NCBI GenBank assembly: GCA_030068145.1
Contig: JAPJBO010000218.1
Coordinates: 186,001 to 250,000 of the forward strand
Length of the DNA: 64,000 nucleotides
Origin: Diplonema papillatum
Lineage: Eukaryota; Euglenozoa; Diplonemea; Diplonemida; Diplonemidae
Reading direction: 5' to 3'
A program made the position numbers and the translations under genes. A model generated the notes under the pieces. It did no database searches and was not told the DNA's origin. It was given only the letters and a program-made list of their open reading frames with translations. Shown one piece after another: positions 3,830 to 59,700 of this stretch (position 1 is the stretch's first letter; each line of letters opens with the position of its first letter).

Positions 3830-5340
3830 AGTGGTTGGCTCTTCGCGACCTCGAAACTGATGCCCACTTTTGAGTTCGTCAACGACTCAAAAGCACAAAA
3901 AACGAGAAAAAAGTGTTGAAACCATAGTTTGGGCCTCGTTCTGTCGAAGCCGGAAAGAAGCCCTGCGGCAGGCCCGTTGGCGGAGTAACTGTTCAACGCA
4001 AACCGTACTCGACTTCCTTTCGTTTGGTTTTATTTTCTTCTGATTCTTTCCAGAAAGTCGGCTCCTTCGTTGGCTTCGCGCCGTATCGATGATCGCAGGC
4101 TCGGAGAATGTTCCCCGCGTTAGTTTGACGCCTGTACCAAAGTGCCAAACCCCTCCTCCTGCCTCCTAAAAGGTCGTCATCGACAGCGCCGCGTCCGTGG
4201 CGCCCTTCGGGTGGCCGATGCGGCACCCCCATCTTTCATCCTCGCCCCGCCTGTGCTGGCGACTGTTCCTTTTTCTCTTTGACACTCGCCAATTCCAAAA
4301 GCTCCACTTCTTTTCACTACTATCAGTTGCGCAGTCCGTGTTTTCTCAGCTGTACTGTGAAAATCGGACAGAACAAGCGGCTACAGCTCTTCTTCGTCCG
4401 CGTGTAGACCGAGAGAATGGCGAAGCACGCTCTCGGTCGGCCACTTGTGGCACGGGTTAAATGTCTCATCGGGGATGGCTTCTTGCAGACACCCTGTAAA
4501 AGTGTTCATACTTCATCCCTCGGACCCTTCTGCACAAAGGACTGCAGAACGAGTTCGAGTGTCTCCTGGTTTCCTGGCTGTGTCTGCGGTTTGCGGCGCA
4601 CTGCATGCGGTCCGGGGGCAACAGGAAACTGAACGTCAGAGCCCTGAGGGTGGTCTGGGGGGCCAAACGTAGTGGAAGCGAACCAGTGCCATCTTGAGCA
4701 CGCCCATGCTCAAGCGCATGCCGGCTGACACCCCCTGCTCGACGTGCTCCAGCAGCCGCCCGCAGCGGCGTCGCCCAGGCGAACAGCAAAACCTCCGTTT
4801 TTGGAGGCAGTGCGCGCTGCGGATACTGACCTGGCCCCGATATACACGCATTCATGCTTAACAAACGTCATAAAGTAACCTTAAGCGGCGACACAGTGCA
4901 TGCTAATCCATGTGGTTCATGTACTTAAAAGAACTCAATGCTTAACAAAATTTGACGTGTGCGGCTTTAGATCTACATCGGAATGACACCTCAACCACAA
5001 TATGTTGTCGACAACAAACAAGTAATACTCTCCTCCTCGCCCGTCTCGCTGCTCCGTACTCGCTGCTCTCGTCCTTGCTGCTGCGTGATGTCAGATTCAT
5101 GGTGCGTAACAAACGTAGAAAGGTCATGCAGAGATTCTCGTGTGTGTGCCACGAACTTCTTCGTGACGCCTCAGGACACTGGACTAGAAGATAAAAATGG
5201 GCAAGGGTGGGTGGGCAAGCGAGGGGTAAAATTACGGTGTTCTTCTCGAGAGCGACGGGGTAATAACCTTTGTACAAGTGTTAGTTCTCGTCGGAATAGT
5301 ATTAATCTTCTAAGATCTTCGATCTTATACGACTAAAATA
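3830..5340. other. Intergenic; no gene recognised
   Basis: Only short unsupported frames. Positions 4893-4940 match the 3' terminal part of element H (CATGCTAATCCATGTGG to CTTAAAAGAACTCAATGC; compare 28550). The end, 5341-5373, is a pyrimidine-rich run ending CAG that may be a splice acceptor for the next ORF. Confidence 0.5.
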
Positions 5341-6422: not shown

Positions 6423-6542
6423 ACCGGCACCGCACAAAAATGGGGGCAAGAAGAATGGGCAGCACACATTGAGATTTAGGAAGAAGCGTGCCCTTGTGTC
6501 TGTCAGTTGGACCACTACCAGCAGATTGAATTGAAGCGACGT

Positions 6543-6760
6543 CTCACGAACAGCCGCCTGACAAACCAGACTCACACTGTCCTGTCTGCAGGCACTCAGG
6601 TTCCGCGCTGATGATGGTCCGCCTTATGCGTCCGTGGCTTGAAGGACCGAAACACGGTGCAGACGGGACCAGTGCGGTGTTGAGCACATAACCACCAAAG
6701 CACGTTCTTGCAATCCCCCTCTTGCACTGCACCACCACTACCAGAGAGTCCTGCTGTGGG
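6543..6760 (+). repeat. Dispersed repeat family B
   Basis: GAACAGCCGCCTGACAAACC, CTGTCCTGTCTGCAGGCACT and a block around GGTTCCGCGCTGATGATGG match the copies at 33215-33760 and 45838-46140. No coding frame runs through all copies. Confidence 0.8.
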
Positions 6761-7205
6761 GCCCAAATTCCTTAGCTTGGCCCTTGGCCCAAGCTCAGAT
6801 TCTTATTAACGGCTCTGTGGACCAGTCTGCAAATTGGACCCTCGCAAGAAGTGCAGGAAGCCGAAGGTCGAAAGGCACTATTCTGTGCGCCCAAACGTCG
6901 GAGCCACAGCAACATGATCGCGACCGATTGCGGTTGGTCACCCGAAGTTGGATCAAACCGCGACAAAACGCGTTGACCACCCATTTGTCAAGGGACGGCT
7001 CAGCGTAAGTCCGGTCCAACTTATTTCTGTTTACCACCCGAGATGCCAAGCGAGGAAGAATATGACATTCAGAGGCTCGTAAACCAACCCTTCCCACAAC
7101 ACAGCGTCCACGGCAGCGCTTTCACGGCACCGAAAGGCGCAAAGAGTGCGGGCGAGGGAAGGGGGTTTATCGTGAAGCGGGTGGCGGCGGGAGGGGGCGC
7201 TGAAG

Positions 7206-10200: not shown

Positions 10201-12325
10201 CCGCGTTCCGGGGGGGGGGGGTTTTGGCGGGGTTCCTTTTTAGCCACATGCGGTGTGCGAAGAAACTGAACCGCCCGAGTAGGATCGTGTCGCCAGTACA
10301 TTTGTTACCGAAGGGAACGTCTTCGAAACGGTTGCACGCGAAAAATTCAAGTGCCGCACTTGCGAAAGTGTTCACGCATGGACCCCCTCAGAGAGACGTC
10401 TGTTTTCGCAAAGCGCAAAGCTATTCTGCCTCATCATTTCATCACAGTAGTTCAGCAACTATTCCGAGCAACCTAGCACTTTGGGCTCTAATCGAAAGCG
10501 AACGCTGGAAGCATAATAAAAAGGTCAACCAAACAGATACTAACACATTCGCTGCTCGAGACAAGCATCCTCACTCTTGTGTTGAACCTGCTGCTACTAC
10601 GGTGGGGTGGAAACATAGTATGCCTGTTTAACACTTCTCCCGGACGTTTGACCCAGCAAGCTACGGTGTCATAAAACGCCATCCACCCGCTTACCGTTGA
10701 GAAGAGTTGGGAAGGCTTTCAAGTTCCAACCGTTGCTCTTTACGCTCCTGACACTCCTGTTTGCACTGCAATTCATTCAAAAACTGGCAACTTATACAAG
10801 GTGTCCCGGCCGCTGCTCAACGGCTTTATCACTAGCACCTATCGTGGTATCCGTGGTAAGCTGTGGTATCCACAGCACCTACGTATTTATCACCTGCTAG
10901 GTATCAGGGATGCTGAGTAGGTAGTAGCTAGGTGGTATCCACCAGCTGCACCATACTCGTGGATGTGTACACACCACCACCATCCACTAGCACCTATCGT
11001 GGTATCCGTGGTATGCTGTGGTATCCACAGCACCTACGTATCCATCACCTGGGATGCTGAGTAGGTAGTAGCTGTGGTATTCACCCGCTGCACCATACTC
11101 GTGGATGTGTACACACCACCACCATCCACTAGCACCTATCGTGGTATCCGTGGTATGCTGTGGTATCCACAGCACCTACGTATCCATCACCTGCTAGACA
11201 TCAGGGATGCTGAGTAGGTAGTAGCTAGGTGGTATCCACCGCTGCACCATACTCGTGGATGTGTACACACCACCACCATCCACTAGCACCTATCGTGGTA
11301 TCCGTGGTATGCTGTGGTATCCGCAGCACCTACGTATCCATCACCTGCTAGGTATCAGGGATGCTGAGTAGGTAGTAGCTAGGTGGTATCCACCCGCTGC
11401 ACCATACTCGTGGACACCACCACCATCCACTAGCAGCTAGTGCAGTACCGTGGTACGCGGTGGTATCCACTAGCACCTACGTATCTACACCCACATGCTG
11501 TGGTAGCAGTATACCACGTAGTAGTAGGTACCACGTATGGGCGGCCCTGCGATTACCCCCTCAGGTGACACCACTGTTTCACCTTCAACCCCTTGCGATG
11601 CCCAGGCGCAGAAAGCTTTGCTGGGAATCTACGGGGTCAAACCCGAGAGTGTTACAACTCCAGAATGGGAAACCCGGTGCTCCTTGGAAAGATTTCGGAG
11701 CATCTCTTCACAGCAGCAAAGATTGATCTTTTTTGACGTGTCATTGCTCTCGAGGCGCAGTGTCTGAGTTCAAGCTCGGGGTCTGGCCATAAAATATGTG
11801 TCCCCCGTCCGTAAAGGGTTCACCATGCTTCAATTGTATCGGCTGCAATATGCATGCGTCCCATTCCATTTTCCTGCACTTTTTCATGCAACTCGACCCC
11901 CCTTCTCGTCCCTGCAGATTCTGAACCTCGGAGGCGGCGAAGCTGGGTTCATGCGAGCCCTTGCCATTCTGACCGTGGTGCCCGGCACCATGTACACCAC
12001 CGCGGCGGCCGTGGGCAACAAGGCGCAGCAGCACAACTACCTCCAAGTGGGCAACGCGACGCTGCCGGCCGCCCACTTCCAGTCGCGGAGCACAGTCAGC
12101 GGCTTCCAAGGCGTCAGCGCGGGTTTGCTCGCGAACGGGATTATGGAGGTCACCTCCCGGTACCCTGCGGCCCACTTCGCCAGCTTCCGGATGAACCTCG
12201 CTCTGCCGATGCTGATCTCGACGTATCTCGTCCTCGGCGCGAGCGGATCTTCCGACTCGTGGCTGTCCTTGTGCGGCGTGATCACCGCTATGGCCTACCG
12301 GGTGGTTCTCAAGAAAGGTTTCTAG
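7206..12325 (+). CDS. Rhomboid-like membrane protein, mitochondrial-type presequence (incomplete model)
   Basis: Three phase-0 exons can be placed: 7206-7337, 8083-8289 and 11918-12325. Exon 1 (MLAAGSRSLLRR...) is an Arg/Ser/Ala-rich, mitochondrial-like presequence ending before GTACGG. Exon 2 has a CAG acceptor, one membrane helix (CVTYALFGLMTVYLLFV) and the rhomboid L1-like segment HFSLNQENMNHNRWYT, ending at GTATGC. Exon 3 follows CCTGCAG and has several hydrophobic segments; its GFQGVSAG (12101-12124) and LSLCGVITAMAYR (from 12264) align with GxSGxxxG and HLGG-type motifs. On that alignment catalytic Ser is Gln and His is Ser. The exon expected to encode helix 2 (SxFSH region) was not found in the 3.6-kb gap, so exon 3 may belong to another gene or an exon has been lost. 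The stop after KKGF may equally be a read-through splice donor. Confidence 0.5.
7498..7664. repeat. Small inverted-repeat (MITE-like) element
   Basis: Ends 7498-7523 (GTGAACTCCAGCAACTTTTG...) and 7639-7664 are inverted copies about 26 bp long with few mismatches. The interior contains further short palindromes built on CACACCC/GGGTGTG. No coding capacity. Confidence 0.7.
7703..7914 (+). repeat. Tandem duplication, about 121-bp period
   Basis: The block starting ATGACACATTCACGTGCGAA and ending near CTAACCCAAACCAT is repeated with about 10 percent change. Confidence 0.8.
8525..8785 (+). repeat. Dispersed repeat family F
   Basis: The segment from GATGGCTGAGTGCACACC to GACGACACATACTACTACTG recurs nearly unchanged at 25657-25895. 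Confidence 0.85.
8785..8935 (+). repeat. Dispersed repeat family C, 5' part
   Basis: CACCTGCTTTGTAGGAAATA through AAGCGTTCAACAAAAA. Longer copies are at 21098-21308, 25312-25520, 39566-39768 and 54824-55240. In each genomic setting it follows directly on other repeat families. Confidence 0.85.
9088..9300 (+). repeat. 26-bp minisatellite, about 8 copies
   Basis: The unit GGCGCCTTGGGGTACACGG plus ACGAGGA is repeated head to tail with one A/G variant. Because 26 is not a multiple of 3, the peptide frame rotates each unit, so the long open frames through it are not evidence of coding. A separate block (GACGTCGAGGGGACCG and neighbours) sits on both sides, near 9040 and 9350. Confidence 0.95.
9558..9812 (+). 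repeat. Dispersed retroposon-like family D
   Basis: About 255 bp matching, in the opposite orientation, 21455-21745, 32410-32830 and 48400-48715. In the D orientation of those copies the element starts in an A/G-rich run (GAAAAAGGCCGCTCC) and ends at CTGGTACC. Here the poly-purine end appears as a pyrimidine run near 9810-9842. Confidence 0.85.
9873..10010 (+). repeat. Family B distal part
   Basis: CAGTGCGGTGTTTGAGCACA, CCTAGGCATGCCGT and AAACGACTCGTGTTTTAGTG recur near 18950-19020. The first of these blocks also appears inside family B at 6672, 33700 and 46100. Confidence 0.7.
10236..10290 (+). repeat. Family E fragment (poly-A retroposon, reversed)
   Basis: TTTTTAGCCACATGCGGTGT and GAAACTGAACCGCCCGAGTA match the fuller copies at 29405-29570, 34168-34378 and 59705-59875. 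Confidence 0.75.
10828..11530 (+). repeat. Minisatellite, about 150-bp units, five copies
   Basis: Units begin CACTAGCACCTATCGTGG at about 10830, 10985, 11129, 11279 and 11426. They are built from short TGGTATCCAC / GTGGATACCA-type words, so each unit is rich in internal inverted repeats. A related shorter array lies at 46135-46345. It lies in the gap between rhomboid-like exons 2 and 3. Confidence 0.9.
11536..11580 (+). repeat. Element H 3'-end fragment
   Basis: GGGCGGCCCTGCGATTACCC and CTCAGGTGACACCACT match the 3' end of element H at 28610-28650 and 59630-59670. Confidence 0.7.
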
Positions 12326-25895: not shown

Positions 25896-26701
25896 ACGCG
25901 AACAACACGCAGTCTTTTATCCCCGAGGTTTTATTATCCCGCAATCGAACCAGGTTGTAATACCGAAGCACATACACACCTTCTCCGGTAGCTCCCGGTT
26001 CAGCCGACTTCCGCGGCCTTCTTAAAAGGGCCCAGTGTCCTTCCGCATGGAGGCATACGGAAGAGCTCCCCTGCAAGGGTGCTTACCCCCGCGAGTATGT
26101 AAATTTGTTGCATTAGTGTGATTGTCAGGCCTTCGACTACCCTGAGCAACGCACTATGCACACTCCGTGTCTACGTCACAGCAGCGCGGAGGCGGCCTAC
26201 GAGTGGGTGTCGTTGTGGCCTCCCGGCCGGAGCCATCGTTGGGTGACCCTTCGCTCGCGAGTAAAAGGGTGCTTCTTTGCAGGGCAGGTATTCTCTCATC
26301 TTGCAAGGTGGTCGGTGCTCCCTCACGGGCCCCGACGCACGCCCACGTCCTCTCCATCCAACCCTCTGTGTTTCTTCCACGACCAATCATACCACATCCA
26401 CGGCCGCACGAGGAGCTTCTTCATCTCAACCAGACCACTCGTCGACTGTCCGCGCCCCTTCAAATGACCGTGCACAATCCGCAAGTCGGGAAACATATCG
26501 ATGTATCCACTGCAGAACAGCGGTCACCAAAGCTGATTCACCATTCGTGGGAGAAATAGGTCTCAGAATTCACATGAGGCAATGCTCCCAAAATCCAAAC
26601 CTGAAACGGTAGCATACCCAGTTTCACTGGAGTGCCCGTTCCCGGCGAGCTACGAGGGAACGCACCTGTAAGAGTGCCAACGCTACTCTTTCTATATATC
26701 G

Positions 26702-26712
26702 TACATATAAAA
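26702..26712 (+). promoter_or_regulatory. TATA-like motif of element H
   Basis: TACATATAAAA lies about 75 bp before the first Met of the first gene and is conserved at 59526. The right end carries a second such motif (GTACTTAAAAG near 28571, GTATATTAAAAG near 59598). The role is inferred only from base composition and conservation. Confidence 0.3.
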
Positions 26713-26777
26713 GGTGTCACGGGATAAGCCGGCAGCCGCTGCTTAACTTACCTCCGGCGGTCTGCGACCGGCACCGC

Positions 26778-27404
26778 ATGACGAGATGCGTGGAGTGCAA
26801 CACGCCGACAGCGTGCTGCAAGGCCGGCCACCATGACTGCCGCGAACACGCCCGCGGGCCGTGTGACGACTGCCGCGGCTTACCGACGCTAGCGGAACGG
26901 CGGCCGTCAGCCTGCTGCAAAAAGGGCCACCACGTGCCAGCGCCCCCGAAGCCAGCCCCCGCTAAGCCGAAGCCAACAACGCCGCGGAAGAAGGGCCGAC
27001 AGAAGCCGACGACACCACCGCGCATGAAGAGGACGCGTCAAGCGTCCCCAAAGGCGGCCAAGATGGCGAAAAAGCACGCTCCGACCGAGCCGGCCCGAGC
27101 GACACCACCAAGAAAGGGGCAGAAAAGAGCCCGACTCCCGACACCATCGAATGACCCGGCAGGAAAACCCGGAAAAAAGCACGTGGCGCGAAAGCGCAAC
27201 ATTTCGAGAATGGAGCTGGATATCACCAGCCCTGCCACCTCGACTTCATCCTCATCCATGTCAGGATCGCCTCCTCGAGCGACTGCTTCGGCGGGACAGC
27301 CGGCGCGAAAGCGCAACAAACGAAAAATGGAGCTGGTTATCACCAGCCTATTATCACCGTCCTCGTCCGCTTTGAGATCGTCCTCGGACGACGTATTCAA
27401 ATAA
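26778..27404 (+). CDS. Cys/His zinc-module protein with basic tail, small paralogue
   Basis: 208 residues from the first Met. The N terminus holds two copies of C-x2-H-x4-C-x2-C-x(5-13)-C-C-x3-H-H. The first is complete only if reading begins upstream: codons 26763-26777 read C-D-R-H-R, supplying its first Cys and His. So the true start is upstream (the frame stays open leftwards) or the gene is 5'-truncated. The rest is Lys/Pro/Arg-rich, with two copies of an ARKRNxxxMELxITS motif (about residues 138 and 175), suggesting nuclear or nucleic-acid binding. It is paralogous to the next gene, in the same direction, and both sit between the ends of element H. I recognise no known family. Confidence 0.6.
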   Translation: MTRCVECNTPTACCKAGHHDCREHARGPCDDCRGLPTLAERRPSACCKKGHHVPAPPKPAPAKPKPTTPRKKGRQKPTTPPRMKRTRQASPKAAKMAKKHAPTEPARATPPRKGQKRARLPTPSNDPAGKPGKKHVARKRNISRMELDITSPATSTSSSSMSGSPPRATASAGQPARKRNKRKMELVITSLLSPSSSALRSSSDDVFK

Positions 27405-27487
27405 CCCTAGCCTATGACAAATGCAAGCTTACCCCTGTGGTACCTGCATTTCAAGTTCACACTGCGTCGTTCGGTTACCCGTCGTTC

Positions 27488-28531
27488 ATGGGCATCACGG
27501 GGATATCGGGTATACGGCCCAGGCCACGCTTTCGCGAGGCACACACGGGGACGATACCTGAGGAACAAGTGAAAGGAAGCGATGTAGGGGCGCAGTGCCC
27601 GACGTACCCTGACTGGACGACCGGGAGAGCGGCGAGGTGGGCCCTGCCTGCCCCACCACAACTGCACCCAGACCCCGTGCATATGCCGGGTGTCGGTATA
27701 GAGAAGCCACTCGTCACGTGCGCGACCCATCACAAAGGGAAGTGTGAGGCGTGCAGAGCACTCGTCCGAAGGGACGTTCCCACGGTAGGGATGTGCTGCC
27801 GGCACCATCACCACGCGAACGATGGGCAGCCGATCGCGGTGTGCACAGAGCACAGCACGACGAAGTGCGGCGAGTGCAAGACGGCGGCGGCGTGTTGCCG
27901 CAGCGGGCATCATGCCTGCCGCACGCATGGCAGAGGGACCTGCCAAGAGTGCAAAAGGCTCCCTACGCTGACGCAGAGGCGACCGGCGGCATGTTGCAGC
28001 CGCGGCCACCACCAGTCCAACAAGCCGAACGTCCAGTCAACCCCCGGACGCAACAAGAAGAAGAGGCCCTCCTCACCCACCCAGGTGGGCGTACAACGGG
28101 AAACGCCAGTAGGAAAGCGAGCGGCGCGAGCGCCGCTCGCGGCAACGAAAAAGGAGACGGCGACGACCGGACGGGCGACCAAGAGGCCGCCACCAACGCC
28201 AGGAACCAGCGAACGACCAGCGCTGAAGAAGAGGGTGCTCGGCACCCCGAAGGAAGGCCTGATCGCCGGCCGCAAGCGGAAGAAGACGAAGGCGACCACC
28301 CCCGACTCAGGGGTGCAACGAAGGAAGAAGAAGGTACCGAGGGCAAGCAGCTCTCAGAAACGACCGGGGACCACGGGCACACCAATGCCCTCGAAAGTGA
28401 AAAACGGACACACGTGCCCGCCCTCGTACTCGCCGACTCAGTCTCTGGAATCGCAAGAAAGCCAAACCCCGCTAGCTCCACAAATGCTCGACCTTGACGA
28501 CGCAATGGCAGGTGACGACGTCATCCGATAA
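27488..28531 (+). CDS. Cys/His zinc-module protein with basic tail, large paralogue
   Basis: About 347 residues from the first in-frame ATG; a later start at the Met before PGVGIEKP is possible. Three zinc modules follow: CATHHKGKCEAC...CCRHHHH, CTEHSTTKCGEC...CCRSGHH and CRTHGRGTCQEC...CCSRGHH. All fit C-x2-H-x4-C-x2-C-x(n)-C-C-x3-H-H. The phrase LPTLxxRRPxACC is shared with the small paralogue. The C-terminal 200 residues are Lys/Arg/Pro/Ser-rich with nuclear-localisation-like clusters (GRKRKKTK) and an acidic end (LDLDDAMAGDD). Function unknown; nucleic-acid binding is inferred. The third base of codons is strongly G/C, as in the host-like genes here. Confidence 0.6.
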   Translation: MGITGISGIRPRPRFREAHTGTIPEEQVKGSDVGAQCPTYPDWTTGRAARWALPAPPQLHPDPVHMPGVGIEKPLVTCATHHKGKCEACRALVRRDVPTVGMCCRHHHHANDGQPIAVCTEHSTTKCGECKTAAACCRSGHHACRTHGRGTCQECKRLPTLTQRRPAACCSRGHHQSNKPNVQSTPGRNKKKRPSSPTQVGVQRETPVGKRAARAPLAATKKETATTGRATKRPPPTPGTSERPALKKRVLGTPKEGLIAGRKRKKTKATTPDSGVQRRKKKVPRASSSQKRPGTTGTPMPSKVKNGHTCPPSYSPTQSLESQESQTPLAPQMLDLDDAMAGDDVIR

Positions 28532-28804
28532 CCTGACTTTCAAGGCAGTGCATGCTAATCCATGTGGTTCATGTACTTAAAAGAACGCAATGCTTAACGG
28601 CTTATCACGTGGGCGGCCCTGAGATTACCCCCTCAGGTGACACCACTTTATCTTTAGCCATACTTCAACCTTCGTTCTCTGTATCTCCAAGTTCTCCCCT
28701 CGTGTTGTCACCACGAAGCGAGGTCTGTCGCTGCTAGCGGGCCCAGAGAGAGGACGAGGCGACACTGTTGACCGCGCCTCAATTGAGCTGCGGTCGCCGA
28801 TCTC

Positions 28805-34384: not shown

Positions 34385-37300
34385 GCCGGGACTCGTGTAC
34401 CTTACGCAGCGCAATTTGCTGTTCAATTCCGAAGACGGCCGCTTCACGATCCCGTGGAGCGACGTGCTGTCGCTGCAGAAGGCGGTCGAGCTCCCGTCGT
34501 ACCCGCCGAACCCTCCGTACTTCTTCAACATCCACCACCCCAACGTCGAGTGGGACGCGCTGCAGGTCTACTGCGCCCGGGGGCGGCTGTACCAGTTCCA
34601 CAAGATCAGAGGCGGCCCCCTCCTTCGCGTGGGCTTTCCGAAAGCCCTCCGGCTCTTGTTCCTCCACTGCGACCGACTGTGGCGCGCCGCTGTCGACGTT
34701 GAGCAGCTCCTGAGCGAGAGGTGTGTTTGTTCGTTTGTGTTGGAGTTCATGTACGGGTAACCCGGGCTAAAGCTGAAGCTATAAAGCTGAAGCTGTAGCT
34801 AAAGCTGGAGCTAAAGCTGGAGCTAAAGCTGGAGCTAAAGCTGGAGCTAAAGCTGGAGCTAAAGCTGGAGCTAAAGCTGGAGCTAAAGCTGGAGCTAAAG
34901 CTGGAGCTAAAGCTGGAGCTAAAGCTGGAGCTAAAGCTGGAGCTAAAGCTGGAGCTAAAGCTGGAGCTAAAGCTGGAGCTAAAGCTAGAGCTAAAGCTGG
35001 AGCTAAAGTTGGAGCTAAAGCTAGCTAAAGCTGGAGCTAGAGTTGGAGCTAAAGCTGGAGCTAAAGCTGGAGCTAAAGCTGGAGCTAAAGCTGGAGCTAA
35101 AGCTGGAGCTAAAGCTGGAGCTAAAGCTGGAGCTAAAGCTGGAGCTAAAGCTGGAGCTAAAGCTGGAGCTAAAGCTGGAGCTAAAGCTGGAGCTAAAGCT
35201 AGCTGGAGCTAAAGCTGGAGCTAAAGCTGGAGCTAAAGCTGGAGCTAAAGCTGGAGCTAAAGCTGGAGCTAAAGCTGGAGCTAAAGCTGGAGCTAAAGCT
35301 GGAGCTAAAGCTGGAGCTAAAGCTGGAGCTAAAGCTGGAGCTAAAGCTGGAGCTAAAGCTGGAGCTAAAGCTGGAGCTAAAGCTGGAGCTAAAGCTGGAG
35401 CTAAAGCTGGAGCTAAAGCTGGAGCTAAAGCTGGAGCTAAAGCTGGAGCTAAAGCTGGAGCTAAAGCTAGAGCTAAAGCTGGAGCTAAAGTTGGAGCTAA
35501 AGCTAGCTAAAGCTGGAGCTAAAGTTGGAGCTAAAGCTGGAGCTAAAGCTGGAGCTAAAGCTGGAGCTAAAGCTGGAGCTAAAGCTGGAGCTAAAGCTGG
35601 AGCTAAAGCTGGAGCTAAAGCTGGAGCTAAAGCTGGAGCTAAAGCTGGAGCTAAAGCTGGAGCTAAAGCTGGAGCTAAAGCTGGAGCTAAAGCTGGAGCT
35701 AAAGCTGGAGCTAAAGCTGGAGCTAAAGCTGGAGCTAAAGCTGGAGCTAAAGCTGGAGCTAAAGCTGGAGCTAAAGCTGGAGCTAAAGCTGGAGCTAAAG
35801 CTGGAGCTAAAGCTGGAGCTAAAGCTGGAGCTAAAGCTGGAGCTAAAGCTGGAGCTAAAGCTGGAGCTAAAGCTGGAGCTAAAGCTGGAGCTAAAGCTGG
35901 AGCTAAAGCTGGAGCTAAAGCTGGAGCTAAAGCTGGAGCTAAAGCTGGAGCTAAAGCTGGAGCTGAAGCTGGAGCTAAAGCTGGAGCTAAAGCTGGAGCT
36001 AAAGCTGGAGCTAAAGCTGGAGCTAAAGCTGGAGCTAAAGCTGGAGCTAAAGCTGGAGCTAAAGCTGGAGCTAAAGCTGGAGCTAAAGCTGGAGCTAAAG
36101 CTGGAGCTAAAGCTGGAGCTAAAGCTGGAGCTAAAGCTGGAGCTAAAGCTGGAGCTAAAGCTGGAGCTAAAGCTGGAGCTAAAGCTGGAGCTAAAGCTGG
36201 AGCTAAAGCTGGAGCTAAAGCTGGAGCTAAAGCTGGAGCTAAAGCTGGAGCTAAAGCTGGAGCTAAAGCTGGAGCTAAAGCTGGAGCTAAAGCTGGAGCT
36301 AAAGCTGGAGCTAAAGCTGGAGCTAAAGCTGGAGCTAAAGCTGGAGCTAAAGCTGGAGCTAAAGCTGGAGCTAAAGCTGGAGCTAAAGCTGGAGCTAAAG
36401 CTGGAGCTAAAGCTGGAGCTAAAGCTGGAGCTAAAGCTGGAGCTAAAGCTGGAGCTAAAGCTGGAGCTAAAGCTGGAGCTAAAGCTGGAGCTAAAGCTGG
36501 AGCTAAAGCTGGAGCTAAAGCTGGAGCTAAAGCTGGAGCTAAAGCTGGAGCTAAAGCTGGAGCTAAAGCTGGAGCTAAAGCTGGAGCTAAAGCTGGAGCT
36601 AAAGCTGGAGCTAAAGCTGGAGCTAAAGCTGGAGCTAAAGCTGGAGCTAAAGCTGGAGCTAAAGCTGGAGCTAAAGCTGGAGCTAAAGCTGGAGCTAAAG
36701 CTGGAGCTAAAGCTGGAGCTAAAGCTGGAGCTAAAGCTGGAGCTAAAGCTGGAGCTAAAGCTGGAGCTAAAGCTGGAGCTAAAGCTGGAGCTAAAGCTGG
36801 AGCTAAAGCTGGAGCTAAAGCTGGAGCTAAAGCTGGAGCTAAAGCTGGAGCTAAAGCTGGAGCTAAAGCTGGAGCTAAAGCTGGAGCTAAAGCTGGAGCT
36901 AAAGCTGGAGCTAAAGCTGGAGCTAAAGCTGGAGCTAAAGCTGGAGCTAAAGCTGGAGCTAAAGCTGGAGCTAAAGCTGGAGCTAAAGCTGGAGCTAAAG
37001 CTGGAGCTAAAGCTGGAGCTAAAGCTGGAGCTAAAGCTGGAGCTAAAGCTGGAGCTAAAGCTGGAGCTAAAGCTGGAGCTAAAGCTGGAGCTAAAGCTGG
37101 AGCTAAAGCTGGAGCTAAAGCTGGAGCTAAAGCTGGAGCTAAAGCTGGAGCTAAAGCTGGAGCTAAAGCTGGAGCTAAAGCTGGAGCTAAAGCTGGAGCT
37201 AAAGCTGGAGCTAAAGCTGGAGCTAAAGCTGGAGCTAAAGCTGGAGCTAAAGCTGGAGCTAAAGCTGGAGCTAAAGCTGGAGCTAAAGCTGGAGCTAAAG

Positions 37301-39030
37301 CTGGAGCTAAAGCTGGAGCTAAAGCTGGAGCTAAAGCTGGAGCTAAAGCTGGAGCTAAAGCTGGAGCTAAAGCTGGAGCTAAAGCTGGAGCTAAAGCTGG
37401 AGCTAAAGCTGGAGCTAAAGCTGGAGCTAAAGCTGGAGCTAAAGCTGGAGCTAAAGCTGGAGCTAAAGCTGGAGCTAAAGCTGGAGCTAAAGCTGGAGCT
37501 AAAGCTGGAGCTAAAGCTGGAGCTAAAGCTGGAGCTAAAGCTGGAGCTAAAGCTGGAGCTAAAGCTGGAGCTAAAGCTGGAGCTAAAGCTGGAGCTAAAG
37601 CTGGAGCTAAAGCTGGAGCTAAAGCTGGAGCTAAAGCTGGAGCTAAAGCTGGAGCTAAAGCTGGAGCTAAAGCTGGAGCTAAAGCTGGAGCTAAAGCTGG
37701 AGCTAAAGCTGGAGCTAAAGCTGGAGCTAAAGCTGGAGCTAAAGCTGGAGCTAAAGCTGGAGCTAAAGCTGGAGCTAAAGCTGGAGCTAAAGCTGGAGCT
37801 AAAGCTGGAGCTAAAGCTGGAGCTAAAGCTGGAGCTAAAGCTGGAGCTAAAGCTGGAGCTAAAGCTGGAGCTAAAGCTGGAGCTAAAGCTGGAGCTAAAG
37901 CTGGAGCTAAAGCTGGAGCTAAAGCTGGAGCTAAAGCTGGAGCTAAAGCTGGAGCTAAAGCTGGAGCTAAAGCTGGAGCTAAAGCTGGAGCTAAAGCTGG
38001 AGCTAAAGCTGGAGCTAAAGCTGGAGCTAAAGCTGGAGCTAAAGCTGGAGCTAAAGCTGGAGCTAAAGCTGGAGCTAAAGCTGGAGCTAAAGCTGGAGCT
38101 AAAGCTGGAGCTAAAGCTGGAGCTAAAGCTGGAGCTAAAGCTGGAGCTAAAGCTGGAGCTAAAGCTGGAGCTAAAGCTGGAGCTAAAGCTGGAGCTAAAG
38201 CTGGAGCTAAAGCTGGAGCTAAAGCTGGAGCTAAAGCTGGAGCTAAAGCTGGAGCTAAAGCTGGAGCTAAAGCTGGAGCTAAAGCTGGAGCTAAAGCTGG
38301 AGCTAAAGCTGGAGCTAAAGCTGGAGCTAAAGCTGGAGCTAAAGCTGGAGCTAAAGCTGGAGCTAAAGCTGGAGCTAAAGCTGGAGCTAAAGCTGGAGCT
38401 AAAGCTGGAGCTAAAGCTGGAGCTAAAGCTGGAGCTAAAGCTGGAGCTAAAGCTGGAGCTAAAGCTGGAGCTAAAGCTGGAGCTAAAGCTGGAGCTAAAG
38501 CTGGAGCTAAAGCTGGAGCTAAAGCTGGAGCTAAAGCTGGAGCTAAAGCTGGAGCTAAAGCTGGAGCTAAAGCTGGAGCTAAAGCTGGAGCTAAAGCTGG
38601 AGCTAAAGCTGGAGCTAAAGCTGGAGCTAAAGCTGGAGCTAAAGCTGGAGCTAAAGCTGGAGCTAAAGCTGGAGCTAAAGCTGGAGCTAAAGCTGGAGCT
38701 AAAGCTGGAGCTAAAGCTGGAGCTAAAGCTGGAGCTAAAGCTGGAGCTAAAGCTGGAGCTAAAGCTGGAGCTAAAGCTGGAGCTAAAGCTGGAGCTAAAG
38801 CTGGAGCTAAAGCTGGAGTTAGAGCTAAAAGCTTCAGAGGCCGGACTCCACCGTGTATCTGAGTCCGAATGGACCGGCCACTGACCAACACCCACAGGAG
38901 CGACTTCGGGAAAAAGTGGCCGAACTTCGACTACACCGTCCCCGAGGCAGCAAACGCCGTGCATGACGACGACGACGACGAGTTCGAAGAGCTACCCGTG
39001 CCTTCACCCACTCCCAACATGGCAGGATGA
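34385..39030 (+). CDS. GRAM/PH-like domain protein, last two exons
   Basis: Exon 34385-34720 follows TGCAG and ends before GTGTGT; exon 38898-39030 follows CCCACAG. The split codon (AG|G) gives Arg and joins ...LLSE to SDFGKKWPNFDYTV, so phases agree. Exon 1 encodes PGLVYLTQRNLLFNSEDGRF, then TIPWSDVLSLQKA, resembling the opening strands of GRAM/PH-like domains (G-x-x-Y-L-T-x-R...). The end is acidic (a run of five Asp, then EFEELPVP) and finishes PTPNMAG. The intervening 4177-bp intron is almost wholly a 12-bp minisatellite. Upstream exons were not identified; a poly-A retroposon abuts the first acceptor. The domain call is by pattern, and a related lipid- or phosphoinositide-binding PH fold is possible. 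Confidence 0.6.
34764..38833 (+). repeat. 12-bp minisatellite, about 335 copies, intronic
   Basis: Unit AGCTGGAGCTAA: an AGCT tetranucleotide every 6 bp. 35530-38815 is nearly perfectly homogeneous, with one G variant near 35965. The first 750 bp contain variant units (GCTAGAGCTAAAG, GCTAGCTAAAG) recurring about 482 bp apart (34981-35046 and 35466-35526), a higher-order duplication. Since 12 is a multiple of 3, all six frames lack stops; the kilobase-long Ala/Gly/Lys, Glu/Leu/Lys, Leu/Ala/Pro and Ser/Phe frames are not genes. Confidence 0.98.
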
Positions 39031-47802: not shown

Positions 47803-47852
47803 CGAGATTACCCCCTCAGGTGACACCACTTTTTTAGCCATACTTCAACGTT
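47803..47852 (+). repeat. Element H 3'-end fragment
   Basis: GAGATTACCCCCTCAGGTGA and CACCACTTTTTTAGCC, then CATACTTCAACG, match 28620-28665. Confidence 0.8.
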
Positions 47853-48399
47853 CTTGAATGATCCCGGCACACTGCTACAGTACCCCAACACTTGCCTTCT
47901 TCGCATGGCTCTTTTGCTTCCCGAAGGACAGTCTCTGTGGTGGACAGTAGTGACAACCACAAAAGAGGTGCACCCTGTCGGGTACATAAACGTGCAGTTG
48001 TGCCGCAACTGGGATTTTTAGTAACTCCGAGCAATTTATGGACAGTTACGTGGGAGGAGTTTTTATATATAAGGCCCTGGAGGTAACTCACCCAAAAAAA
48101 AAAAAAGAATTGGAAATCGGGTGGGAGGTTGGGTTGATTTACACTACCTCGGATTGGGTTGGGCAGCGTTTTGGTGTCTGTATTCTGGGTTGGCAGGGGC
48201 AGGCTAGGTGTCTTCTGAAGAAGAAAGCTGGCTGCAGAAGGCCTGCCTTCAGCCAGGACATCAGATTCTGAGGCTCAAGTACCGTACCGTCTCCCGGGGG
48301 GCGGTGCCCCCCCCGGACCCCCCTGTATTAAGACTCGCCAGAGAAAACGGGCTTGGTGTCTATTCTGAAGGAGAAAACGGGCTGCATAAGGTCCTGGTC

Positions 48400-50284: not shown

Positions 50285-51750
50285 AGCATTTAAAGTAGTG
50301 TGCCGTGCTAATTCCTGATAGCCTTTAAACACGCACCTTGCAGGGCAACCGTCCTGTCAAAGCCTTCTGCAAGAAGCTGGGCAATGTCCCACGTAGCGGA
50401 GGCACGCGGCTACAGCCTGGCACCCAGCCTCAGTGGTCAACCCGAGACACTAAACCGGACCTTCAAAGTTTAAACTTCGAAACAACATTAAAGTAGTGTG
50501 CCGTGCTAATTCCTAATAGCCTTTAAACACGCACCTTGCAGGGCAACCGTCCTGTCAAAGCCTTCTGCAAGAAGCTGGGCAACGTCCCCACGTCGCGAAG
50601 GCTAACGCCGAAGGCGCCCGCGGCTACAGCCTGGCACCCAGCCTCAGTGGTCAACCCGAGACACTAAACCGGACCTTCAAAGTTTAAACTTCGAAACAGC
50701 ATTTAAAGTAGTGTGCCGTGCTAATTCCTGATAGCCTTTAAACACGCACCTTGCAGGGCAACCGTCCTGTCAAAGCCTTCTGCAAGAAGCTGGGCAATGT
50801 CCCACGTAGCGGAGGCACGCGGCTACAGCCTGGCACCCAGCCTCAGTGGTCAACCCGAGACTTTAAACCGGACCCCTTCACAGTTTAAACTTCGAAACAA
50901 CACTAAAGTAATGCGCCATGCGAATTCCGAATAGCCTTCAAACAAACACCGTGCAGGGCCACCGTACTGACAAAACCTTGCAAGAAGCTGGCAACGCCGA
51001 AGGCACCTGCGGCTACAGCCTGACACCCAGCCTCAGTGGTCAACCCGAGACTTAACCGGACCCCTTCACAGGTTAAACTTCGAAACAACACTAAAGTAAT
51101 GCGCCATGCGAATTCCGAATAGCCTTCAAACAAACACCGTGCAGGGCCACCGTACTGACAAAACCTTGCAAGAAGCTGGCAACGCCGAAGGCACCTGCGG
51201 CTACAGCCTGACACCCAGCCTCAGTGGTCAACCCGAGACTTAACCGGACCCCTTCACAGGTTAAACTTCGAAACAACACTAAAGTAATGCGCCATGCGAA
51301 TTCCGAATAGCCTTCAAACAAACACCGTGCAGGGCCACCGTACTGACAAAACCTTGCAAGAAGCTGGCAACGCCGAAGGCACCTGCGGCTACAGCCTGAC
51401 ACTCAGCAACCCGAGACTTAACCGGACCCCTTCACAGTTTAAACTTCGAAACAACACTAAAGTAATGCGCCATGCGAATTCCGAATAGCCTTCAAACAAA
51501 CACCGTGCAGGGCCACCGTACTGACAAAACCTTGCAAGAAGCTGGCAACGCCGAAGGCACCTGCGGCTACAGCCTGACACTCAGCCTCAGTGGTCAACCT
51601 TACTGACACAGCAAAAACAAAGTGAGACTCTGAACTGGACCTTCAAAGTTGAAACGTCAAAACAACACGGTAGCACTGCGCCATGCTAATCCCGAATAGC
51701 CTTCGAACAAACACCTTGCAGGGCAACCTTACTGACAAAGCAAAAGAAAA
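50285..51750 (+). repeat. PhyH-derived tandem repeat, about 180-216-bp units
   Basis: About eight units. Each contains GCAAGAAGCTGG, CAACGCCGAAGGC-type sequence and CGGCTACAGCCTG, CAGCCTCAGTGGTCAACC, then an A/T-rich spacer with CTTCGAAACAACA and GCAGGGC. The first two words derive from the PhyH 5' fragment at 50130-50220. The three units around 50940-51500 are almost identical. The last spacer leads straight into the intact PhyH ATG. Confidence 0.9.
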
Positions 51751-51760
51751 AAAAAAAAAG

Positions 51761-52558
51761 ATGAATCGATTAAATGAAGCAGAGATCCAACGCTACAAAG
51801 AAGATGGCTTCATCATCCCGAAGTTCAAGTTCGACGAAGCCCGGATCGCGCGGCTGCGGGAGCACCTTGATGAGTTGATGGCCAAGAACCCCGGCGTTCG
51901 CCCCGAGAAGCTGGTCAACGCCCACGTCGCGAAGGCCAACGCCGAAGGCACCCGGGGTGTCGACGCCTTCCTGGAGCTGGCGAAGGACGAGCGGCTGCTC
52001 GACCTGGTGGAGTCGGTCCTGGGCCCGGACATCGTCCTGTGGGGCTGCCACGCCTTCTGCAAGCCAGCCGGCGATGGAATGGAGGTGCCGTGGCACCAGG
52101 ACGGGCACTACTGGCCCATCCGCCCGCTGGCAAACTGCACGGTGTGGGTTGCCTTGGACGACAGCGTCGAAGAGAACGGCTGCCTGCAAGTCGTGAAAGG
52201 CTCGCACAAAGAGCAGCGGCTGTTCACCCACCACCGCGACCAGCGCGATAGGCTGACTCTCGCCGACGCCGTCGACGAAAAATACGTCGACCCCTCCCGG
52301 ATCGTCAACCTAGTCCTCGAACCCGGCCAGATGTCGATGCACGATGTGTACATGATCCACGGGTCCTCCGAAAACAGGTCGACCCGCCGCCGGGCCGGGA
52401 TTGCGATTCGCTACATGCCGGCCACGTCGGTCTTCGAGCGGAAGGCCATGGAGGCGGGCGACGACTCGGGACTCAAAATCGACTTCAGCCAGCGGCCGCT
52501 GTGGCTGGTCCGCGGAAAGGATGCGTCCGGCAAGAACGACTTCGAAGTCGGCCACTGA
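51761..52558 (+). CDS. Phytanoyl-CoA dioxygenase (PhyH)-like Fe(II)/2-oxoglutarate oxygenase
   Basis: Single-exon, 265 residues, starting MNRLNEAEIQRYKEDGF, the usual PhyH opening. The Fe-binding set is visible: H112-x-D114 in VPWHQDGHYW, distal His200 in MSMHDVYMIHGSSEN, and an Arg cluster at 209-211 for 2-oxoglutarate, followed by RAGIAIRYMP. Length is normal. Known relatives hydroxylate acyl or other substrates using iron and 2-oxoglutarate; the substrate is not evident. No peroxisomal PTS1-type end is present (ends FEVGH). The upstream A-rich leader (17 A/G bases) is the end of the degenerate repeat. Both ends of this gene have been copied locally (50026 and 52962-54449). This is the only copy with all catalytic residues. 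Confidence 0.92.
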   Translation: MNRLNEAEIQRYKEDGFIIPKFKFDEARIARLREHLDELMAKNPGVRPEKLVNAHVAKANAEGTRGVDAFLELAKDERLLDLVESVLGPDIVLWGCHAFCKPAGDGMEVPWHQDGHYWPIRPLANCTVWVALDDSVEENGCLQVVKGSHKEQRLFTHHRDQRDRLTLADAVDEKYVDPSRIVNLVLEPGQMSMHDVYMIHGSSENRSTRRRAGIAIRYMPATSVFERKAMEAGDDSGLKIDFSQRPLWLVRGKDASGKNDFEVGH

Positions 52559-52961
52559 TCTCTTTCAAGAAGATGAAACAGCATGGACACAAAATAGCTC
52601 AAAGCATCTGCAGGAGTGACAGCATGGTCGCAAAAAATAGCTCCAAGGCATCTGCAGAAGAACACGAAAAGCCTCTAGGCAAGAACTGGTTTCGCGCGTC
52701 TCTTTTGTTTGCGCACTAGCGGAACTCACCTGCTTTGGCAAGTTTCATGTAGTACGCTGCGACCTACGAATTCTTCGTGCCACCACTGCATTGTTAACAG
52801 ACAAACATGGCTAGCCGTAGTTAAAGTGTATAACGCCTCACAGCCTCAATGGTCAACCGGAGACCGTAAAACACCGAACCTCTAAACCACAACAAACGCT
52901 ACAAAATACTCGAGGGACTGCCCTGTGCTCATTTCGACGGAGGCTCGAGGGGGAGAAAACA

Positions 52962-53189
52962 ATGTCGATGCACGATCTGTACATGATCCACGGGTCCTCC
53001 GAAAACCGGTCGACCCGCCGCCGGGCCGGGATTGCGATTCGCTACATGCCGGCCACGTCGGTCTTCGAGCGGAAGGCCATGGAGGCGGGCGACGACTCGG
53101 GACTCAAAATCGACTTCAGCCAGCGGCCGCTGCGGCTGGTCCGCGGAAAGGATGCGTCCGGCAAGAACGACTTCGAAGTCGGCCACTGA
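52962..53189 (+). pseudogene. PhyH 3'-end copy 1 (75 codons)
   Basis: MSMHDLYMIHGSSENRS to KNDFEVGH and stop. Keeps the distal His and Arg region but lacks the HxD part, so it cannot be a working oxygenase. Differs from the parent by Val-to-Leu and Trp-to-Arg changes shared by all three copies. The ATG is the parent's internal Met. Confidence 0.9.
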
Positions 53190-53207
53190 TCTCTTTCAAG
53201 AAGATGA

Positions 53208-53320
53208 AACAGCATGGACACAAAATAGCTATTTTTTGCGACCATGCTGTCACTCCTGCAGATGCTTTGAGCTATTTTGTGCCCATGCTGTTAGTGACAG
53301 CATGGTCGCAAAAAATAGCT
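53208..53320. repeat. Nested inverted repeat downstream of PhyH copies
   Basis: AACAGCATGGACACAAAATA (53208) pairs with the inverse at 53270-53292, and AGCTATTTTTTGCGACCATG (53228) with the inverse at 53294-53320. The parental 3' flank (52575-52660) has the same words without the inverted middle, so a segment was inverted and re-duplicated, as expected from template switching. The same structure is at 53832-53944. Confidence 0.85.
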
Positions 53321-53585
53321 CCAAGGCATCTGCAGAAGAACACGAAAAGCCTCTAGGCAAGAACTGGTTTCGCGCGTCTCTTTTGTTTGCGCACTAGCGG
53401 AACTCACCTGCTTTGGCAGTTAAAGTGTATAAGCATACCTACTACCCTCATACCACCCGCCTCACAGCCTCAATGGTCAACCGGAGACCGTAAAACACCG
53501 AACCTCTAAACCACAATAAACGCTACAAAATACTCGAGGGACTGCCCTGTGCTCATTTCGACGGAGGCTCGAGGGGGAGAAAACA

Positions 53586-53813
53586 ATGTCGATGCACGAT
53601 CTGTACATGATCCACGGGTCCTCCGAAAACCGGTCGACCCGCCGCCGGGCCGGGATTGCGATTCGCTACATGCCGGCCACGTCGGTCTTCGAGCGGAAGG
53701 CCATGGAGGCGGGCGACGACTCGGGACTCAAAATCGACTTCAGCCAGCGGCCGCTGCGGCTGGTCCGCGGAAAGGATGCGTCCGGCAAGAACGACTTCGA
53801 AGTCGGCCACTGA
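53586..53813 (+). pseudogene. PhyH 3'-end copy 2 (75 codons)
   Basis: Identical in protein to copy 1. Confidence 0.9.
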
Positions 53814-54209
53814 TCTCTTTCAAGAAGATGAAACAGCATGGACACAAAATAGCTATTTTTTGCGACCATGCTGTCACTCCTGCAGATGCTTTGAGCTATT
53901 TTGTGCCCATGCTGTTAGTGACAGCATGGTCGCAAAAAATAGCTCCAAGGCATCTGCAGAAGAACACGAAAAGCCTCTAGGCAAGAACTGGTTTCGCGCG
54001 TCTCTTTTGTTTGCGCACTAGCGGAACTCACCTGCTTTGGCAGTTAAAGTGTATAAGCATACCTACTACCCTCATACCACCCGCCTCACAGCCTCAATGG
54101 TCAACCGGAGACCGTAAAACACCGAACCTCTAAACCACAATAAACGCTACAAAATACTCGAGGGACTGCCCTGTGCTCATTTCGACGGAGGCTCGAGGGG
54201 GAGAAAACA

Positions 54210-54449
54210 ATGTCGATGCACGATCTGTACATGATCCACGGGTCCTCCGAAAACCGGTCGACCCGCCGCCGGGCTGGGATTGCGATTCGCTACATGCCGG
54301 CCACGTCGGTCTTCGAGCGGAAGGCCATGGAGGCGGGCGACGACTCGGGACTCAAAATCGACTTCAGCCAGCGGCCGCTGCGGCTGGTCCGCGGAAAGGA
54401 TGCGTCCGGCAAGAACGACTTCGAAGTCGGCCACTATTATCTCTCTAAC
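54210..54449 (+). pseudogene. PhyH 3'-end copy 3, stop lost by fusion
   Basis: Same as copies 1 and 2 to GGCCACT. The parental TGATCTCTTTC is then replaced by ATTATCTCTCTAACAG, so the frame runs on into the module at 54450, giving a 170-codon chimeric frame from 54210 to 54722. Confidence 0.85.
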
Positions 54450-54722
54450 AGCTGGAACGATGCCGTGCCTGAATATCCGCACGACGTACCCTATGTTCAG
54501 TGGGAGTTGAGATTCTCTGTCAAGATGCTAGCCGCCGCCATAGGGCGGGCTATTGCCAAAAGGAGGAGAGCCCGCGAAACAACGTGTCAACACACGCCTG
54601 CCAGGCGGTCTCGTCCGCCAGTCAGAACGCCCCCGGCTGCGCCACCATCGGTGCAACAATCATCTTTGACAGGGCCACGGCTCGCTCCGCGCCCACGGCG
54701 CAACGACTTGCGCCCGCCGTAG
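54450..54722 (+). CDS. Basic C-terminal module ending RNDLRPP, copy 2
   Basis: SWNDAVPEYPHDVPYVQWEL, GRAIAKRRRAR and a Pro/Arg/Ser-rich tail ending RNDLRPP. Homologous to 30001-30267 through the stop and a 3' flank that ends in CT repeats (54788-54806). A polypyrimidine run and ACAG immediately precede the start, consistent with a last exon. Here it is joined in frame to the truncated PhyH copy. Whether the chimera is expressed is unknown. Confidence 0.45.
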   Translation, partial: SWNDAVPEYPHDVPYVQWELRFSVKMLAAAIGRAIAKRRRARETTCQHTPARRSRPPVRTPPAAPPSVQQSSLTGPRLAPRPRRNDLRPP

Positions 54723-59464: not shown

Positions 59465-59525
59465 GTGTGCACTCTTCTACGCTACTCTTTTTTTTCTGTA
59501 ATGTAGTTTATTCTTGATAACCAAC

Positions 59526-59700
59526 TACATATAAAAGGTGCCACGGGATAAGCCAGCAGCCGCTGCTTAACGGTTCATGCTGATCCGTGTGGTCCGCGTA
59601 TATTAAAAGTTCCCAATGCTTCTTCACGTGCGCGGGCGGTCCTGAGATTACCCCCTCGGGTGACACCACTTTGTCTTTAGCCATAGTTCAACTCTCTTTG
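59526..59700 (+). mobile_element. Gene-less version of element H
   Basis: Left-end words (TACATATAAAAGGTG, CACGGGATAAGCC, GCAGCCGCTGCTTAAC) are followed directly by right-end words (CATGCTGATCCGTGTGG, GGCGGTCCTGAGATTACCCC, CTCGGGTGACACCACT). In the 26.7-kb copy about 1.8 kb with two genes lies between. About 15 percent diverged from that copy, so not a recent direct deletion of it. Confidence 0.7.

Follow-up and report, generated by a model that had tools for sequence, protein, structure and literature searches.

Two Cys/His-rich reading frames in a Diplonema papillatum repeat as 5'-truncated tails of site-specific non-LTR retrotransposons with a putative readthrough and StopGo expression layout

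A 64,000-nucleotide stretch of the Diplonema papillatum genome (contig C218, positions 186001 to 250000; here called the window) contains two adjoining reading frames rich in cysteine and histidine, which the initial annotation described as a pair of novel, paralogous zinc-module genes lying between the left and right ends of a mobile element. The locus is an old repeat, called E here, that hosts two adjoining 5'-truncated long interspersed nuclear elements (LINEs) of families A and B, in the order E-A-B-E. Genome-wide searches reported below cover the 271-Mb, 2910-contig assembly. The parts of the locus are as follows (ORF, open reading frame; UTR, untranslated region; aa, amino acids).

26377 to 26746, plus strand: upstream part of repeat E, the 5'-truncated 3' portion of what is probably a third retroposon-like repeat; coding to 26609 (C-x2-C...H-x3-C finger), then 3' noncoding
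26702 to 26747, plus strand: H, the former "left end," an internal piece of E holding TATAAAA and an AG at 26712-26713
26740 to 26746, plus strand: 5' target half-site TGCTTAA
26747 to 27465, plus strand: LINE of family A, 5' truncated; final 218 aa of ORF2 in a frame from 26748; ends ...TTCACACTGC
26763 to 26834, plus strand: Cys/His module 2 of A (CDRHRMTRCVEC...CCKAGHH)
26838 to 26933, plus strand: Cys/His module 3 of A (CREHARGPCDDC...CCKKGHH)
27466 to 27480, plus strand: A-B joint, 15 nt matching no assigned part; the usual TTAACGG is missing
27481 to 28593, plus strand: LINE of family B, 5' truncated; final 349 aa of ORF2, stop codon at 28529-28531, 3' UTR ending ...CAATGC
27719 to 27814, plus strand: Cys/His module 1 of B
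27842 to 27913, plus strand: Cys/His module 2 of B
27917 to 28012, plus strand: Cys/His module 3 of B
28594 to 28600, plus strand: TTAACGG, the 3' copy of the target sequence
28594 to about 28676, plus strand: downstream part of E, ending ...TTTAGCCATACTTCAAC; right limit approximate

Neither frame is a complete gene. Both are open back to their 5' junctions and lack their own start codon, and the ATG assigned to the first gene is internal to a frame that continues to the junction (218 aa in all). The stop codon of the A copy (27402-27404) is followed by 61 nt of 3' UTR, and the copy is 98.3% identical to positions 6469 to 7187 of the A element at locus L016. The B copy is 98 to 99% identical to those at loci L002 to L008.

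A search with the first protein (26778-27401, 208 aa) returned 151 matches, with 150 scored of 2590 candidates. Many of the matches listed span the whole length, and many sit in long open frames, the longest being 1750 aa among whole-length matches and 1892 aa in one other match. The 1750-aa frame, which is ORF2 of the A copy at L016, matches the Pfam families RVT_1 (8.7e-25) and Exo_endo_phos (2.2e-10), along with zf-RVT at 0.001, which is below the curated cutoff; its best match in the PDB is LINE-1 ORF2p (6.3e-21). The frame of the second protein extends over 849 aa in L002 and, when followed along contig C1241, over 2004 aa, and this B-family ORF2 matches RVT_1 (1.3e-20), Exo_endo_phos (1.2e-8), and 2OG-FeII_Oxy_2 (1.6e-11). 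In both families an apurinic-type endonuclease (APE) lies N-terminal to the reverse transcriptase (RT), whose YxDD motif reads YADD at aa 881 in A and aa 1115 in B. No RNase H match was obtained at an E value of ≤1 in A ORF2 or in the first 1551 of the 2004 aa of B ORF2. The two ORF2 proteins are 44% identical over 825 aa, in agreement with the homology first proposed for the two short proteins. Because long RT-bearing frames contain both supposed genes, and because A and B are 44% identical, the two are, as judged by sequence, the C termini of 5'-truncated ORF2s from sister families of non-long-terminal-repeat (non-LTR) retrotransposons. Beyond position 8900, the 3' flank of L016 contains tandem copies of a small gene, which we take to resemble a gene for a cold-shock-domain protein.

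The Cys/His modules lie in the tail of ORF2. In all six frames of the whole window, the pattern C-x2-H-x4-C-x2-C was found at five places, each of them within one of the two proteins, and the tail of each long A and B frame that was read contains three modules of the form C-x2-H-x4-C-x2-C-x(n)-CC-x(1-3)-HH followed by a basic tail. That the modules could not be placed in a known zinc family held up: no Pfam family matched them at E values up to 10, the only matches being Anillin_N at 0.047, which falls in the basic tail outside the modules, and one at chance level (0.82) for a single piece of 34 aa. A PDB profile search of the module gave cytochromes only (0.24 and 0.26). The AlphaFold2 model of the module, built from two sequences, had a mean predicted local distance difference test score of 45.9 and was unusable. 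The triple Cys/His tail probably binds nucleic acid.

A single TGA followed by CTA is all that separates ORF1 from ORF2, which lie in the same frame in A and in B alike. This in-frame TGA CTA is present in 11 of the 11 fetched A loci in which the junction is contained and in the one B locus. When the stop codon was left free (NNN, with CTA fixed and ≤2 mismatches allowed), TGA stood at 64/64 B and 23/23 A places genome-wide; the scanned copies are nearly identical, with hardly any diverged ones among them, so that conservation within a family says little. Weight is therefore placed on the comparison of A with B, between which the flanking letters differ. Ahead of the endonuclease lies a 2A motif, GDIEENPGP in 11 A loci and GDVEQNPGP in one B locus, and BLAST aligns only 26 aa around this motif between the stop-to-2A segments of the two families. 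In B, this segment encodes an AlkB-type oxygenase (the 2OG-FeII_Oxy_2 domain noted above, with an ALKBH8 match at 1.8e-6), which by homology would be active. The first in-frame methionine of B ORF2 in the one copy read is aa 221; since it follows the HxD at aa 200, no in-frame AUG past the UGA could serve as the start of the AlkB domain. The definition of type II readthrough is a UGA that generally has CGG or CUA after it (PMC11166343). Overall, the arrangement points to production of ORF2 by stop-codon readthrough plus StopGo.

Translation of ORF2 by reinitiation, or from a non-AUG start after ORF1, with UGA CUA being chance or inheritance, is an unlikely alternative, though less unlikely than the two considered further below. 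Termination-reinitiation is known for SART1 and has been proposed for L1 (PMC5972666), the first ORF2 methionine of A is already at aa 36, and the RNA past the UGA forms no stem that reaches significance. Against it stand the common frame of ORF1 and ORF2 in both families, the retention of TGA CTA where the neighboring letters of A and B differ, the fit of these codons to the type II definition (PMC11166343), and the lack of an in-frame AUG between the UGA and the HxD of AlkB in B.

Under the readthrough interpretation, the mRNA of a long-ORF copy would carry a spliced leader, ORF1, and a leaky UGA-CUA, then in B the AlkB domain, and after that the 2A StopGo peptide, endonuclease, RT, and Cys/His tail, all in one frame. 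The diplonemid spliced-leader exon was found at 609 places with ≤2 mismatches (reversed control, 0), in keeping with the assignment to D. papillatum. It is fused to a LINE leader in L019 and L032 (A type) and in L063 (B type), and shorter spliced-leader ends are found in L015, L016, and L017. An exact degenerate pattern recovered 71 spliced-leader junctions, of which 67 lead into the B-type leader and 4 into that of A type. Because eight hand-paired B copies carry the B-type leader upstream of B's UGA junction (2119 to 2176 nt before it, on the same strand), this leader belongs to B. These spliced-leader-headed copies look like retrocopies of trans-spliced mRNA.

The two leaders begin differently. 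In B, the spliced leader is joined ahead of GCTGCTCACG, and the leader is without H. The A leader starts GTGTCACGGG..., the letters that follow the AG of H (26712-26713) in E, giving the join AG|GTGTCACGGG, and the 5' leader of spliced-leader-headed A copies includes 34 nt of H. It thus appears that transcription of an A copy within E starts outside the copy and that trans-splicing takes place within E, with 34 nt of the target traveling along. At L036, from position 1841 onward, the spliced leader stands on a different leader (GTGGCTTACCGTGG...) before an A-like 5' region that L009 also has; this is a further subfamily.

Repeat E was defined from an alignment of the short unit at 59.5 kb with 20 other copies of it, together with 10 of 58 places at which E is uninterrupted. 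These 58 were recovered with a 30-nt pattern spanning the insertion site (≤2 mismatches; reversed control, 0), where E reads ...AGCCGCTGCTTAACGGCTTWATCACGTGGG.... The copies are 5' truncated to differing extents, and most end in TTTAGCCATACTTCAAC. In the window, E begins at about 26377, and its sequence there encodes the C terminus of a different protein, which has a C-x2-C...H-x3-C finger; H lies inside E and is not a terminus. This upstream part is 95.2% identical to L074 across 332 bp; the other 39 scored places match the upstream query only from positions 176 to 188 onward. At L074 (1452-3056), a 535-aa ORF with a C-terminal finger lies upstream of E and overlaps another long ORF in a different frame; it has a weak OTU match (0.11), and the neighboring ORFs have no match. 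In all probability, E derives from the 3' end region of a third retroposon. Other identities for E were tried and rejected. As a known RNA, its best Rfam E value was 0.16 for the 59.5-kb unit, with nothing near a gathering score, and no tRNA was found anywhere in the window. As a hairpin RNA it was weak (z = -2.22, with 6 of 200 shuffles equally good), and as a miniature inverted-repeat transposable element running from GGTGTCAC to GTGACACC it fails since it extends upstream into coding sequence and is 5' truncated.

The remaining copies and fragments in the window are as follows.

59478 to 59573, plus strand: upstream part of a second copy of E, ending in TTAACGG; left limit approximate
59574 to 59619, plus strand: 46-nt 3' tail of a B-like LINE in E, the sole sequence between the E halves
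59620 to 59693, plus strand: downstream part of the second copy of E
4894 to 4965, plus strand: mainly B tail, with the start of the downstream part of E
11538 to 11575, plus strand: downstream fragment of E
47804 to 47853, plus strand: 3'-end fragment of E (right-end match over 47804-47849)

The matching flanks on which the initial annotation was built are real: in pairwise comparison, 26702-26747 is 95.7% identical to 59526-59571 and 28548-28669 is 79.5% identical to 59573-59692. Their meaning is different. The "right end" (R) is composed of two unrelated pieces, the 3' tail of B (28546-28593) and the 3' part of E (28594 to about 28676). The single right ends reported elsewhere in the window are likewise present but represent different parts, mainly B tail at 4894 and E at 11538 and 47804. 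The 59.5-kb unit, taken earlier for a deletion derivative, is a copy of E into which nothing more than a 46-nt B-like tail has been inserted. E also occurs independently of the two genes, an outcome that the initial annotation had named as refuting its model; with the short unit as the query, 40 of the 40 places scored, out of 1840 candidates, were listed as matches.

Junctions were sampled at 34 loci chosen from the matches of the first protein (14 with long frames and 20 mostly truncated), and the counts include all BLAST matches of the A body in L001 to L075 that met fixed length and end criteria. A pieces have many different start points and one end, ...CACACTGC. Their 3' ends are followed by TTAACGG in 18/37 cases, by another TTAA in 6/37, by TCAACA in 7/37, and by other letters in 6/37, placing 31 of the 37 at TTAA or TCAACA, with the target being TGC^TTAACGG or TGC^TCAACA. 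At the truncated 5' starts, TGCTTA was found in 23/39, TGCTCA in 4/39, and neither in 12/39. Genome-wide, exact A 3' ends followed by TYAAC number 307 (reversed control, 0) and those followed by TTAACGG at ≤1 mismatch number 265, both being absolute counts and not shares of all A 3' ends. The B tail passes into E at TTAACGG in five of the loci L002 to L008, at CTAACGG in one, and at TTAGCGG in one, although these loci were recovered with a query containing this piece of E and hence are no test of target choice by B.

The sequences next to these junctions are often other insertions. Within 60 bp upstream of A starts lie H (16/39), a B-type tail (7/39), or an A 3' end (3/39). Past the A 3' end there is directly another A or B body in 11/37 cases, a B tail of ≤62 nt in 8/37, an A or B body further on in 2/37, and none of these in 16/37. 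The order H-A-B recurs on contigs C241 and C393, where A is cut elsewhere and the A-B spacing is 309 and 505 bp. Judging from these junctions, A inserts at a defined target motif, and its copies are truncated and stacked. At L010 and L014 (contigs C1690 and C2830), an A copy has a common 5' flank and differing 3' flanks; the common flank may be an assembly duplication or gene conversion.

The endonuclease and RT would carry out target-primed reverse transcription from a strand nicked, as we infer, at TTAA^GCA, so that copying would begin at TGC^TTAACGG, or at TGC^TCAACA in a sister repeat, and insertion would yield 5' truncation and a short target duplication. A LINE RNA ending in ...TGC would rebuild TGCTTAACGG at the new junction, allowing further copies to stack beside earlier ones. 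Because A ends ...CACACTGC and B ends ...CAATGC, each insertion would recreate TGC+TTAACGG; the target, being restored, would not be consumed, which would let insertions stack and would explain the order E-A-B-E.

It is very improbable that H and R are instead the two termini, 5' and 3', of the LINE itself and that the 59.5-kb unit is a nonautonomous derivative, like those named RIME and NARTc, in which both termini of the autonomous element are retained. E sequence does travel in LINE RNA, as shown by the 34 nt of H in A leaders, and R begins with the true 3' tail of B. Trypanosomatid elements are also published to have a common 77-nt 5' sequence, Pr77 (PMC8190864, PMC4748587), which counts for such an arrangement. 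However, E extends about 325 bp further upstream with a coding end of its own, A copies in the TCAACA sister repeat are without H (4/39 starts, two of them perhaps one event), the B leader is without H, and E exists uninterrupted at the site, by which this explanation is largely refuted.

The view of the locus as an autonomous or cargo-bearing element that encloses two zinc genes, accompanied by internal-deletion derivatives, can hardly be maintained: the matching flanks at 26.7 and 59.5 kb and the recurrence of H, A, and B at C241 and C393 speak for it, and membership in mobile DNA does stand, but each gene is the tail of a far longer ORF that encodes an RT, H and the outer portion of R belong to the older repeat E, A pieces vary at the 5' end while the 3' end and the junction with H or E are nearly constant (the pattern of 5'-truncated target-primed insertion), B loci L002 to L008 lack an A body and many A loci lack a B body, and no second block matched end to end among 40 scored of 3733 candidates.

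We assign a probability of about 0.9 to the reading in which A and B are APE-type LINEs that insert in E and whose long-ORF copies, transcribed with a spliced leader, encode ORF1, a presumably leaky UGA-CUA, and 2A in one frame. Several observations weigh against it. The A-B joint in the window has 15 nt in place of the TTAACGG expected between stacked copies, and the exact motif is missing at 12/39 5' starts and 6/37 3' ends; four of the six 3' ends are the near variants TTAGCGG, TTACTGG, TTATCAC, and TAAACAT, and the remaining two belong to the window copy and to a copy in L015. The H-A-B order at C241 and C393 would also be expected from a single composite element. The loci were hand chosen, the copies are young and related, and the flank of L010 and L014 is common to both, so the counts do not represent independent events. 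As for expression, the constancy of TGA within each family says little, the evidence for B rests on one fully read copy, the A segment between the UGA and 2A has only about 100 aa and no domain, and an RNA stem after the UGA was not significant (z = -0.62 in A and -1.34 in B).

Three further observations concern other parts of the window. An intronless 291-aa ORF with partial repeated copies downstream (51683-54722) presumably resembles a PhyH-type dioxygenase. A very long tandem array at about 35040 to 38890 reads KLELKLEL or ALAPALAP in several frames. A large-subunit rRNA fragment (171 bits) occupies positions 1 to 1004 and continues past the start of the window; the D. papillatum genome is reported to have some 3600 dispersed 28S fragments (PMC10161547).

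The window locus itself is ordinary, consisting of shortened LINE tails within a repeat. A and B, the families from which it derives, count among the site-specific APE-type LINEs, and within that kind they are new and unusual in how their expression is laid out. L1Tc has an APE endonuclease, and the L1Tc/ingi clade has an RNase H domain, whereas no RNase H match was found in A ORF2 or the scanned 1551 aa of B. A and B differ from this clade in having ORF1 and a putatively leaky stop before 2A and in being site specific for E. They share with the L1Tc/ingi LINEs of trypanosomatids a euglenozoan host with spliced leaders and a 2A peptide (PMC4981915), 2A-like peptides having been published for both trypanosome and sea-urchin LINEs (PMC4981915). 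Targeting of multicopy sequences, including transposons, is known among LINEs, with Tx1 and R1 as APE-bearing target-specific clades (PMC4640811). A and B resemble these in having an apurinic-type endonuclease, an RT, and a defined site in a multicopy target, a likeness of features and not a clade placement. Unlike Tx1 and R1, their target is a short motif in the 3' region of another retroposon that insertion would restore, and they have the UGA-CUA and 2A arrangement, the AlkB domain (in B), and the triple Cys/His tail.

An orchid Ty3/Gypsy LTR element has similarly acquired an AlkB-type 2OG oxygenase (PMC9289625), but there AlkB lies in an additional ORF, whereas in the non-LTR family B it lies inside the ORF2 frame upstream of 2A. 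The UGA followed by CUA is shared with type II readthrough in viruses and some cellular genes (PMC11166343); A and B differ in being non-LTR retrotransposons and in the lack of a significant downstream stem-loop, a feature of many, though not all, known cases. In a literature survey conducted mostly at the level of titles, with most subscription papers outside its scope, neither families A and B nor any non-LTR element with readthrough or with AlkB was found to have been reported. Gene models resembling LINE-1, SLACS, R2, and jockey are mentioned, unsorted, in the D. papillatum paper (PMC10161547). We consider it only slightly better than an even chance that all of the following hold together: two recoding steps in series, UGA-CUA readthrough and then 2A StopGo; release between them, in B, of an AlkB-type RNA demethylase or repair enzyme; a Cys/His tail that is a new type of module; a self-rebuilt target; and stacking without limit in retroposon 3' regions.

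Diplonemids are abundant marine protists whose repeats have hardly been sorted; repeats make up 52% of the D. papillatum assembly (about 280 Mb; PMC10161547). If the expression scheme is true, stop-codon readthrough and StopGo would be joined in one retrotransposon, and the ratio of ORF1 protein to enzyme would be set as it is in some RNA viruses and retroviruses. Production of AlkB only after readthrough suggests that the element may counter RNA methylation or damage, as has been proposed for the AlkB-bearing LTR element (PMC9289625). A target that restores itself would explain the continued availability of safe sites.

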